From Clostridia bacterium (GTDB lineage: Bacteria; Bacillota; Clostridia; Oscillospirales; Acutalibacteraceae), in NCBI GenBank assembly GCA_017613735.1, contig JAGADF010000007.1, positions 1-52,388 on the forward strand: 52,388 nucleotides of DNA. The letters are read 5' to 3'. Below the pieces are notes generated by a model. That model made no database searches. It saw only the letters and a list, made by a program, of their open reading frames with translations, and was not told the origin of the DNA. Positions 30,506 to 33,942 of this stretch are shown here, one piece after another. Made by a program: the position numbers and the translations under genes. How positions within the stretch are numbered: position 1 is the first letter of the stretch; each line of letters opens with the position of its first letter.

Positions 30506-31261
30506 ATGCGTGAAAATAACGAAGCAAACAGGCAGGACCTTTTAATCGGCAGGAACGCCGTTGCCGAAGCCGTTAGGGCGGGCAGACAGATTGATACGCT
30601 TTTTGTCCTTAAGGGCGAAAAGAACGGCGCGGTCGGCAATATCGTCGCCGTCTGCCGCGATAAGGGCGTTACGGTTAAACAGGTTGACAGAAAAAAGCTC
30701 GACTATATGTGCGGCAGGGAAAACCATCAGGGAGTCGCCGCGTTCGTAGCGGCTCACGAATATGCCGAAATCGAAGATATTTTTGCCCTTGCCGAAAAGA
30801 GAAACGAAAAGCCTTTCATCATCGTCTGCGACGAAATGGAGGACCCGCACAATCTTGGCGCGGTTATAAGAACAGCCGAGCTTGCGGGGGCGCACGGAGT
30901 TATTATTCCGAAACGCCGTTCGGCTTCGCTTTCCTACGCGGTAGGCAAGACGAGCGCGGGAGCGCTTGAATACGTACCCGTGTGCCGGGTTGCGAATCTT
31001 CCCGCAACCATTGATTTGTTAAAGGAAAAGGGCTGCTGGGTTTACGGCGTGGATATGGGCGGCGAAGACTGCCGTACAATGGATTTTGACGGCGCGGTCG
31101 CTCTTGTAATCGGCTCCGAGGGCAGGGGACTGGGCAGACTTGTCAGAGAAAAATGCGACTATATTGTTTCGCTTAAACAAAAAGGCAAAATCAATTCCCT
31201 TAACGCGTCCGTCGCGGCGGGGATTCTTATGTACGAAATAATGTATCAGAGAGATAAATAA
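30506..31261 (+). CDS. rlmB: TrmH/SpoU-family rRNA 2'-O-methyltransferase
   Basis: A 251-aa SPOUT methyltransferase expected to methylate the ribose of G2251 in 23S rRNA. The N-terminal substrate-binding domain (LIGRNAVAEAVRAGRQIDTLFV, then YMCGRENHQGVAAFV) is followed by the knot with DEMEDPHNLGAVIRTAELAGAHGVIIPKRRS, ALVIGSEGRGLGRLVREKCD and SLNASVAAGILMYE, all conserved. The exact rRNA target is inferred from the family. It precedes the pseudo-P-type ATPase gene by 14 bases, so the two are co-transcribed. Confidence 0.92.
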   Translation: MRENNEANRQDLLIGRNAVAEAVRAGRQIDTLFVLKGEKNGAVGNIVAVCRDKGVTVKQVDRKKLDYMCGRENHQGVAAFVAAHEYAEIEDIFALAEKRNEKPFIIVCDEMEDPHNLGAVIRTAELAGAHGVIIPKRRSASLSYAVGKTSAGALEYVPVCRVANLPATIDLLKEKGCWVYGVDMGGEDCRTMDFDGAVALVIGSEGRGLGRLVREKCDYIVSLKQKGKINSLNASVAAGILMYEIMYQRDK

Positions 31262-31275
31262 TCGGGGTGTGAACA

Positions 31276-33942
31276 ATGGCTGAAGAGAATAAAAACAACT
31301 TTTTAAGCGACCTTAACAAGTACGACGAGGGCAGAGTCTGGTCTCTCGATGAAATTGACGCGCTTCTGGGCGGCGAAATCGTTCATGAAGAGCCTCTTGA
31401 AATCGAAAAACAGCTCGCTGAGGAAAAGAGAAGGGAAGAAGCGGCTGAAAACGAAGGCGGTCAGCTCGCTTTCGCCGAGGTGGACATTCCCGAATCCGTT
31501 CCCGAAGAGGAAGAGATTACGGTTGAGGAAACAAAGCCCGCCGAAGGTCAGATTTCCTTTGAAAAGACGAGAGTTTTTAACGAGGTAGACACCTCCGCCG
31601 GCTATAACATAAATATCGAGCACAATATTACCGACCAGCGCGTAGTTCACACCACTACCGGCAGGGACGACAATATTGTTCAGCGCTCCAACAGAATGGA
31701 GTCCGATAAAATCAGGGAGAGATTTATTAATCCACCCGTAAAGGATATCGAAAAAACGGCGGAGCACAGAGCGATTCTCGATAAGCTTCCGCCGAAGACA
31801 ATCGAAAGAGCGGGCTTCTTTGTCGAAGAGGGAACGAACAGTTCAACCTCCGACCTTGACCCGTTGCCGACAATTGTTTCCGCCGATTCCGTTATGCAGA
31901 ATCAGAGAGCCGATGACTTAAACGAAGAAATTCACGAAAACCAGATAACCTTTGAGGGCTTTAACGAGGAAGAGGAAATCGAAAAGGTCGACGAATACGA
32001 GGCTGAAACCGAGCTTATTCGCCGTCGCCGCGAAAAGGCGAAAAACTTTAAGCTTTTCCCGAATCTTCCCGAGGACGGGGAGACGGAAGACGGAGAGATT
32101 TCCGACGAAAACGCCGAGTCGGATGAGAACGACGATTTTGAGGACGCCATTGATTACCCCGAGGAAAACGCGGTTCTCAAAAGAGTTGAAAGAAGAAAGA
32201 AAAGCGCGTCGGACCAGGTTATCGAGAGGGAGTTTTACGGCGCGAAGGACAAAAAGGGCGTTGAGGATTTACTTGAGAAAAAACGCAGAGGCGCCCTTAT
32301 ACAGATGATTATAAGCGCGGTCGCGTTTGCGGTTCTTACCGTTATGAGCCTGCTCGCGTCAAACGGAGATTTCACGTTCTTCAGCGGAAGAGTTGAAATT
32401 TTCCTTATGCTCAATATCGCGGTTCTTGTAATCGCGTGCTGCGCAAGTCTTGACATTTTCAAGAGCGGTATTCTCGGTCTGTTCGGCAGAAAAGCGAATA
32501 CCGATTCGGCGGTTTTTGTTGCATTCGTCGCGGCGGTTATTCAGAACGGAATATCCTTTGCTTTTACGGATTCGGTCGAAACCTCGGTTCATATTTATTC
32601 CGCTGCGGCGGCATTTACGCTGCTGCTGAATACGGCGGCGAGGTTTGTAAAAGCCAAAAGCATTGAAGAAAACTTCGGCTATATTTCTCAGGAAAGAGAT
32701 TTCTATACGGTTAAAAGCATTGAGGACGAGGACGCGTCCTTCGAAATCGGCAGGGGACTGTTCCTGGGTGACCCGGATATCCGCTATAACGCGATGACCG
32801 CGTTCGAAGAAAAGTACGTTGAGAATTCGTCAAAGACCGAGCCCGCGGCGACTACGGTTATGAGAGCGATTCCCGTCACCGCGATTCTTGCGGTTGTAAT
32901 AGGTGCTATTACAGGCGTTATAATGCGCGATATCCCTTCCGCAATAGCGGCGTTTACGGGCACTGTTTGTCTTGCTTCCCCCGTAGGAGCGTTCCTCGCA
33001 AGCGCCTGGATTTTCTCGTCAATGTCGAAAAAGCTTACCGACGAAGACGCGCTTATAGTAGGTTATGAATCGGCTGACGAACTGACCAAGGCGAATGCCG
33101 TCGTATTTGACGCGGCGGAACTTTTCGATACCGAAAACTGCAAGAGTTTCGGCTTTAAGACCTTTAATTCAATGCGTCCCGACGAAGCGATGCTTTATAC
33201 GGGCGCGGTAATGATAGCGGCGGGCGGCCCGCTTGCAAATCTTTTCCGCCTTTCGGTTATAGGCGACCGCGACGTTTTCCCGACGGTCGAAAACCTCAAT
33301 TATGAGGACAAGCTCGGCTGTTCGGCGTGGGTTGAACATAACAAGAGAGTTCTTGTGGGCAACCGCGAGCTTCTTATAAACCATAACGTCGAGGTGCTCG
33401 ACAAGGAATATGAATTAAAGCTTAAGAGAAGCGGCAGGCAGATTATTTATCTCGCTGTCGAACACGTGCTTTCCGCCATTTACGTTGTCGGCTACACACC
33501 TGATACTCAGGTGGCTTCGCTTCTGCGCAAGCTCGAAAAGAATTCTCTTCCGATTCTTGTAAGAACGACAGACCAGAATATAACCGAGGAATTTATTGAG
33601 GAAAGCTTTATTCTTCCTAAGAATTCCGTTAAGGTTATAAGCTCGGTCGCGGGCGAGATGTTCAGCGATATTTACGAGACGATAAGCGAAAAGGATTCCT
33701 CCGGCGTAATGCACGACGGAACGACAAAATCCTTCCTTAAGGCGTTCAATTCCGCTTATACGCTTATGGCGAGAGTTCAGATTGCATCGATTCTTCAGTA
33801 TATCGGCGTCGGACTCGGCGTGCTTATTATGTCGCTTATGGCTTTCTTCTCGGCGCTTATGCAGGGCGGCGCGCTCCAGCTTTGTATTTTCCAGATAATC
33901 TGGACGGCGGTTACAATTCTCATTCCGAAAATCAAAAAATAA
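31276..33942 (+). CDS. large membrane protein resembling a catalytically dead P-type ATPase
   Basis: An 888-aa protein without an obvious named family. Residues 1-340 are hydrophilic and very acidic. They are followed by about six to eight membrane helices in a P1-type layout. After the pre-catalytic helix (TGTVCLASPVGAFLASAWIFSS, about 560-580) comes an LTKANAVVFD stretch matching the approach to the phosphorylation site. There the expected DKTGT reads D612-AAELFD. A nucleotide-binding-like region has ARRVLVGNRELL-type text (HNKRVLVGNRELL). Where TGDN is expected it reads TTDQN, and no TGES actuator motif is seen. Two helices close the protein. I infer a pseudoenzyme; it lies 14 bases after rlmB. 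Confidence 0.7.
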   Translation: MAEENKNNFLSDLNKYDEGRVWSLDEIDALLGGEIVHEEPLEIEKQLAEEKRREEAAENEGGQLAFAEVDIPESVPEEEEITVEETKPAEGQISFEKTRVFNEVDTSAGYNINIEHNITDQRVVHTTTGRDDNIVQRSNRMESDKIRERFINPPVKDIEKTAEHRAILDKLPPKTIERAGFFVEEGTNSSTSDLDPLPTIVSADSVMQNQRADDLNEEIHENQITFEGFNEEEEIEKVDEYEAETELIRRRREKAKNFKLFPNLPEDGETEDGEISDENAESDENDDFEDAIDYPEENAVLKRVERRKKSASDQVIEREFYGAKDKKGVEDLLEKKRRGALIQMIISAVAFAVLTVMSLLASNGDFTFFSGRVEIFLMLNIAVLVIACCASLDIFKSGILGLFGRKANTDSAVFVAFVAAVIQNGISFAFTDSVETSVHIYSAAAAFTLLLNTAARFVKAKSIEENFGYISQERDFYTVKSIEDEDASFEIGRGLFLGDPDIRYNAMTAFEEKYVENSSKTEPAATTVMRAIPVTAILAVVIGAITGVIMRDIPSAIAAFTGTVCLASPVGAFLASAWIFSSMSKKLTDEDALIVGYESADELTKANAVVFDAAELFDTENCKSFGFKTFNSMRPDEAMLYTGAVMIAAGGPLANLFRLSVIGDRDVFPTVENLNYEDKLGCSAWVEHNKRVLVGNRELLINHNVEVLDKEYELKLKRSGRQIIYLAVEHVLSAIYVVGYTPDTQVASLLRKLEKNSLPILVRTTDQNITEEFIEESFILPKNSVKVISSVAGEMFSDIYETISEKDSSGVMHDGTTKSFLKAFNSAYTLMARVQIASILQYIGVGLGVLIMSLMAFFSALMQGGALQLCIFQIIWTAVTILIPKIKK

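Follow-up and report, generated by a model that had tools for sequence, protein, structure and literature searches.

P-type ATPases are named for their phosphorylated aspartate, and further prokaryotic families of them are considered likely in a review (PMC10654040). The passages of this review that were searched for wording on pseudo-pumps described none, and no P-type pseudoenzyme family was found in the literature searched, most subscription journals lying outside its scope. The closest described systems are the P1B-1 copper ATPases (CopA, ATP7B, HMA4), followed by the P1B-2 Zn/Cd ATPases (ZntA, CadA), which were matched more weakly than the copper type. The DKTGT, TGES, TGDN, GDGxND, HP and CPC motifs of the copper pumps are missing from the 111 orthologues described below, and the same losses separate them from the Zn/Cd pumps. 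Unlike the copper ATPases, the pseudo-pump has a shrunken A domain, a truncated P domain and a long acidic arm in front.

Other likenesses concern the surroundings and the N terminus. In the mgtCBR operon of Salmonella (PMC3641672), an MgtC gene lies beside a gene of the P-type fold, likewise the arrangement in the genus of our DNA; however, MgtB is a working Mg transporter, and the link between the pseudo-pump and MgtC was observed at the genus level only. The N-terminal EIDALL peptide of FliM/FliY binds CheY-P (PMC9126983), and WSLDEIDALL near the N terminus of the arm looks alike, a resemblance in sequence only.

The window (the whole stretch of DNA analyzed, 52,388 nucleotides) carries the pseudo-pump gene as an uninterrupted frame with an ATG start, whose features are collected in Table 1. 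The residues singled out in the initial annotation were confirmed: LTKANAVVFD at 603-612, where it had been placed, VLVGNRELL at 692-700 and TTDQN at 764-768.

Table 1. Features of the pseudo-pump gene and of its upstream neighbour in the window.
Feature	Position	Strand	Basis or remark
rlmB (SpoU-family rRNA 2'-O-methyltransferase)	30506..31261	+	Pfam SpoU_methylase and SpoU_sub_bind
Pseudo-P1B-ATPase gene	31276..33942	+	888 aa; NCBIfam, A3 profile and structure matches
Acidic cytosolic arm, residues 1-322	31276..32241	+	88 D+E vs 39 K+R
Arm motif WSLDEIDALL, residues 22-31	31339..31368	+	resembles FliM/FliY EIDALL
Arm motif GQISFEKTRVFNEV, residues 91-104	31546..31587	+	consensus GQIxxEKTRxFxEV of 25 arms
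Arm segment, residues 174-258	31795..32049	+	partly ordered in prediction
Membrane helices MA, MB, M1, M2, residues 323-470	32242..32685	+	models; hydropathy peaks for 3/4
Shrunken A domain without TGES, residues 471-522	32686..32841	+	alignment; short M2-M3 stretch
M3 and M4, residues 523-589	32842..33042	+	helix-breaking Pro569 in M4 kept, CPC not
Pseudo-P domain, first part, residues 590-629	33043..33162	+	sequence comparison with orthologues
DAAELFD in place of DKTGT	33109-33129	+	inside pseudo-P domain, first part
Pseudo-N domain, residues 630-743	33163..33504	+	G681, G695 kept; GP vs HP in P1B pumps
Truncated pseudo-P domain, second part, residues 744-816	33505..33723	+	GDGxND deleted
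TTDQNIT	33565-33585	+	inside pseudo-P domain, second part
M5 and M6, residues 817-888	33724..33939	+	models, hydropathy

The likeness to P-type ATPases, initially proposed by eye, proved to be P1B homology beyond chance. The single protein matched the NCBIfam heavy-metal P-type ATPase model TIGR01525 at E=3e-9 and the CopA model at E=1.7e-7; the respective scores (36.3 bits for TIGR01525, whose cut-off is 346.25, and far under the curated cut-off for CopA) leave it short of what NCBIfam demands of a P1B ATPase. The CopA model was matched at E<=0.001 by 79 of the 80 members of alignment A3, the window protein among them. When the A3 profile was run against the PDB, 21 distinct sequences appeared at E<=0.01, all of them P-type ATPases, with LpCopA at the top (E=1.9e-24), whereas the PDB search with the single sequence gave nothing meaningful. 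Pfam returned zero matches for the window protein, even at E<=10, and weak ones in A3 (HAD hydrolase in 14/80, best 0.0025; E1-E2 ATPase in 11/80, best 0.0007).

The AlphaFold2 model of the core (pLDDT 91.2, pTM 0.86) comprises helices MA, MB and M1-M6 together with N and P domains. The 50 matches listed by Foldseek and the 50 listed by VIA-align were P-type ATPases or their domains, with P1B at the top; 9byb, among the structural matches listed, bears only the title 'membrane transport protein'. The predicted fold of the pseudo-pump is that of a P1B ATPase. Of the two outcomes that the initial annotation had named as refuting, a fold unrelated to P-type ATPases and orthologues with intact motifs, neither was observed.

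The motifs were compared between 111 distinct orthologues, a sample that leans on the window's family, and 29 true P1B pumps recovered in the same searches. At the aligned places, DKTGT, TGES, TGDN and the CPC of M4 were present in all 29 control pumps and in none of the orthologues, which have a gap (108) or other letters (3) in place of TGES and, in one case, CPL in place of CPC. GDGxND, found in every control (once as GDGVND), corresponds to a gap in 111/111 orthologues, and the HP of the N domain, replaced by HL in 4 of the 29 controls and intact in 25, was likewise absent from all 111. In the window protein DAAELFD, starting at D612, indeed occupies the place of DKTGT. The TGES that the initial annotation could not see is absent rather than merely unseen: the M2-M3 stretch (aligned with residues 455-528) is shortened to 61-85 aa in 57 relatives vs 139 aa in four congeneric true pumps. 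Look-alikes found across whole ORFs, DKTG (L014, L064), TGEP (L135, L167) and TGDN (L027), were dismissed as chance, because all five sit in arms, far from the P domain.

The statement that every catalytic motif had been lost held for DKTGT, TGES, TGDN and GDGxND and was a slight overstatement for single residues, Asp612 and the T and D of TGDN being retained in the window protein. Among the orthologues, T or S of TGDN persists in 101/111 and D (D766) in 109/111, followed by N at 768 (106/111) and T at 770 (97/111). An acidic residue stands three places after the phospho-acceptor, at position 615, in 104/111. Asp occupies the phospho-acceptor place itself in 87/111 orthologues but in 5/23 when one protein per family is counted, a difference due to the leaning of the sample towards the window's family. 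In the N domain, the G of GN is invariant (111/111) with the full GN in 60/111, and G681, the second G of GxG, has a weighted conservation of 0.98, while the first G is mostly replaced; we take GxG and GN to be part of the nucleotide site of this domain.

With the T and D of TGDN, G681, G695 and Asp612 retained, some nucleotide or phosphate chemistry may conceivably persist. The protein might be imagined as a re-tooled enzyme in which the old P-domain site (acidic 615, T764, D766, N768, T770) would now serve as a novel active site, HAD-like or nucleotide-using. Several of these proposed active-site residues are among the best conserved columns. However, Asp at 612 is missing in 18/23 families, and the Lys of P-x-D-K and the entire GDGxND stretch are lost, so no recognisable metal-binding HAD centre is left. 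We regard this explanation as improbable.

Conservation is distributed unevenly along the core: 36 of its 45 most conserved positions lie inside the pseudo-N/P part, and a ligand or partner is therefore expected there. The same distribution argues against a passive channel or carrier that would use the P1B membrane body without ATP. The eight membrane helices of the model and the M4 proline, kept in 105/111 orthologues, would suit such a function, but the metal-binding CPC is lost throughout (the second Cys is left in 10 and the first in 2 of the 111) and the conserved positions are chiefly cytosolic, so that we give it even less credence than the re-tooled enzyme.

Predicted P1B fold and motifs lost in 111 orthologues together support the reading as a pseudo-ATPase, and we hold with high confidence that the protein is a pseudo-pump. 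Lacking the features that define a P-type ATPase, it does not merit that name and is better described as a pseudoenzyme branch of the P-type superfold. A non-transporting role, in which the protein would neither turn over ATP nor move a substrate, is indicated by the fold together with strict conservation and the loss of those pump-cycle motifs that sequence can reveal. Pseudoenzymes that are strictly kept are often regulatory. As to the mode of action, we lean, with some reserve, towards a scaffold or sensor.

A match to the pseudo-pump was found in 58 of 59 related genomes, the exception being 55% complete. Its wider distribution was followed with the A1 profile, built from 28 relatives. In a sample of the order restricted to genomes of >=90% completeness, in which three candidates were scored per genome, 290/297 genomes and 143/145 genera matched at E<=1e-50, each matching genome once except G399, which had two matches. 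In a second search of the seven misses, at E<=1e-5, G468 turned out positive (1.1e-45) and G203 contained a 294-aa open piece assignable to the pseudo-pump or to a true pump; G232 and G290 (one genus), G255, G267 and G386 gave only matches of the ordinary-pump type at this threshold. Of 147 genomes sampled from the class, six belong to the order and scored 424-952 bits, and the best score elsewhere, 127.5 bits, covered profile positions 455-731, the N/P part. At the phylum level 2/199 genomes matched at E<=1e-50, both from the order. Within the samples covered, the pseudo-pump gene thus belongs to the core genome of a single order.

This order is most likely Oscillospirales. Support for both names, of the order and of the genus, comes from a single identity: Candidatus Fimenecus excrementavium (L112) and G025 (L011), a genome of the window's genus, encode the same protein sequence, and Candidatus Fimenecus is assigned to Oscillospirales, Acutalibacteraceae (PMC8035907). 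The best 80 of 269 named loci bear names such as Oscillospiraceae, Ruminococcaceae, Clostridia, Candidatus Fimenecus, Candidatus Limimonas and similar. The gene is near-universal in a large order of gut bacteria, nearly always as a single match per genome, with a product in the window to which Pfam is blind.

In a tree of 29 pseudo-pump and 29 true-pump rows the two sets were split by one fully supported branch; the tree carries a long-branch warning and was relied on solely for this split, which agrees with a single origin of the pseudo-pumps without proving it. A simple count gave dN/dS values of 0.05-0.18 for the core in 37 close pairs, which share members and so are not independent, with dS near saturation in wider pairs. 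The core is under purifying selection.

These data bear directly on the possibility of a decaying or broken transporter gene. The lost catalytic motifs and a few interrupted copies in draft genomes (one TGA in G057, one TAA in G040, a split over two frames in G046) might be read in this way. However, the near-universal presence of the gene and the identical deletions in the orthologues compared speak against recent decay, as does the low dN/dS; the absence of DKTGT, TGES, TGDN and GDGxND from all 111 orthologues, none having intact motifs, likewise means that we are not dealing with a recently broken transporter. We consider decay hardly credible and retain the pseudo-pump as the preferred reading. 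The in-frame TGA that breaks the G057 orthologue (L031:3412-6557) is either a genuine mutation or an artefact of the draft assembly.

The front of the protein had been annotated as a 340-residue acidic cytoplasmic N terminus; the acidic character was confirmed, and the length was corrected to about 322 residues. Low confidence prevails in the prediction of the arm, most of its block means of pLDDT in the full-length model being <70, and it is probably disordered for the most part. Among 25 aligned arms W22, S23, D28, L30 and L31 are nearly invariant, and the blocks common to the window's family are W-S-x-x-E-I-D-x-L-L, GQIxxEKTRxFxEV, ~174-217 and ~223-258. Three loose arm patterns were detected in 63, 57 and 40 of 107 arms, a non-independent set drawn mainly from the window's family, vs means <1 in shuffled arms; the 57 are those with the EIDALL-like pattern (mean 0.3 in shuffles). 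An N-terminal S-x-x-x-I-L/D pattern is absent from 44/107. The EKTRVFNEV part of the second block (31546-31587) reminds us of the threonine sites read by FHA domains, and we presume that it may be a kinase target. Mimicry of FliM at the flagellar motor was rejected for the genus, as FliM had no match in any of the 36 genus genomes searched; it had none in 55/59 relatives either.

The segment 174-258 differs from the rest of the arm. Strands 181-184 and 199-202 and helices 203-217 and 240-257 were predicted in it, with pLDDT block means of 77, 84 and 83 over 181-210 and 86 over 241-250, and P198, Q223, F229, E240, E244, L247, R251 and F258 are invariant among the 25 aligned arms. Strands and helices become confident over residues 181-217 and 240-257 of the full-length model (mean pLDDT 79.3), in which, compared with the core model, the A-domain strand 502-508 extends to 502-512 and a new P-domain strand 804-808 appears. 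Because of these gains, we read residues 174-258 as probably packing on the core, perhaps at the shrunken A domain or the truncated P domain.

At the profile level the arm is not shared order-wide. Its profile matched the pseudo-pump alone, in one place each in 19/30 genomes, and had no match in the 11 genomes that represent other families; two patterns of the family's arm blocks were found in 0/20 distant proteins, one of them armless. Looser look-alikes of the blocks are visible in L035, L041 and L051. A search for the S-x-D-D-I-L-type motif in other proteins, run with a narrow pattern on 1.62 Mb of loci that cover largely identical neighbourhoods, returned only the first half of a disrupted orthologue. 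A similarly narrow DNA pattern for this motif gave 5 matches in 8 genomes, 2 of them in the gene and none of the 3 others N-terminal in a listed protein.

Upstream of the pseudo-pump gene in the window lies rlmB, whose stop codon is separated from the pseudo-pump start by 14 bases. The same neighbour stands directly upstream on the same strand in 101/111 distinct loci (median gap 21 bases). Among the remaining ten, five are without upstream sequence, L051 and L175 are without an adjoining rlmB, and in L021, L031 and L108 rlmB is present but was uncounted (a run of N, an interrupted ORF and an overlap, respectively). Co-transcription with rlmB, asserted outright in the initial annotation, fits the 14-base spacing and the keeping of the pair across the order, and the two genes presumably form an operon. 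The rlmB neighbour hints at a possible link to ribosome maturation, although it may reflect operon history alone. A fusion with RlmB (a 1228-aa ORF in L021) was rejected, as a run of N separates the two in the DNA.

Besides rlmB, no neighbour was conserved across the order among families present in at least six loci; the next commonest, downstream, was found in 32/111. A gene of the MgtC family follows the pseudo-pump gene directly in 31/36 genomes of the window's genus (Pfam) and in 33/111 distinct loci (L004-L011, L013, L015-L030, L053-L057, L118, L136, L180), i.e., in the genus and its near kin. This neighbour raised the alternative of a regulatory subunit that pairs in the membrane with another protein, e.g., an MgtC-type protein or a true pump; in the window's genome two more ORFs, of 638 and 833 aa, are matched by the profile along the P-type stretch. 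The MgtC linkage is, however, confined to the genus and near kin, and in five genus genomes, the window's own included, mgtC is located elsewhere. Moreover, MgtC had no match in 14/59 relatives, 13 of which carry the pseudo-pump. Because of this limited linkage, MgtC as a partner is kept only within this alternative, which we judge to be unlikely, on a par with the re-tooled enzyme.

Returning to the scaffold or sensor, we favour the following account. An ancient copper-type P1B ATPase was stripped of its phosphorylation motif, the bulk of the actuator domain, a portion of the P domain and the membrane metal site, probably no later than in the last common ancestor of the order, and was subsequently maintained as a core protein. 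The protein retains the eight-helix membrane body and the pair of N and P domains and carries the long acidic arm. It most likely serves, anchored in the membrane, as a non-transporting scaffold or sensor: the degenerate N/P domain, with the glycines of the nucleotide site and the conserved cluster of acidic residues and TxDxNIT, would bind a partner or a ligand, perhaps a nucleotide, and the arm would recruit cytosolic partners via its short conserved motifs. At its most specific, this raises the tentative hypothesis, which we put forward as a possibility rather than an expectation, of a first P-type pseudo-ATPase family: an order-wide membrane receptor derived from a copper pump, kept by nearly all members, whose N/P part still binds a nucleotide or other ligand and whose arm, partly folded on the core at the A-domain gap, signals to cytosolic partners, perhaps in connection with ribosome maturation via the rlmB operon. 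The pseudo-pump offers a concrete and testable unknown of a core genome and a natural case of the use of the P-type body without pumping.

Some less frequent neighbours were also noticed by eye. Genes resembling EF-G-type GTPases (GHVGDGKS) lie downstream in L031, L039, L041, L047 and L052, each of a different family. Genes resembling serS, parA and parB are present upstream in 16 to 17 loci, at median distances of 0.9 to 3.1 kb, and the operon may therefore adjoin the replication origin in those relatives.
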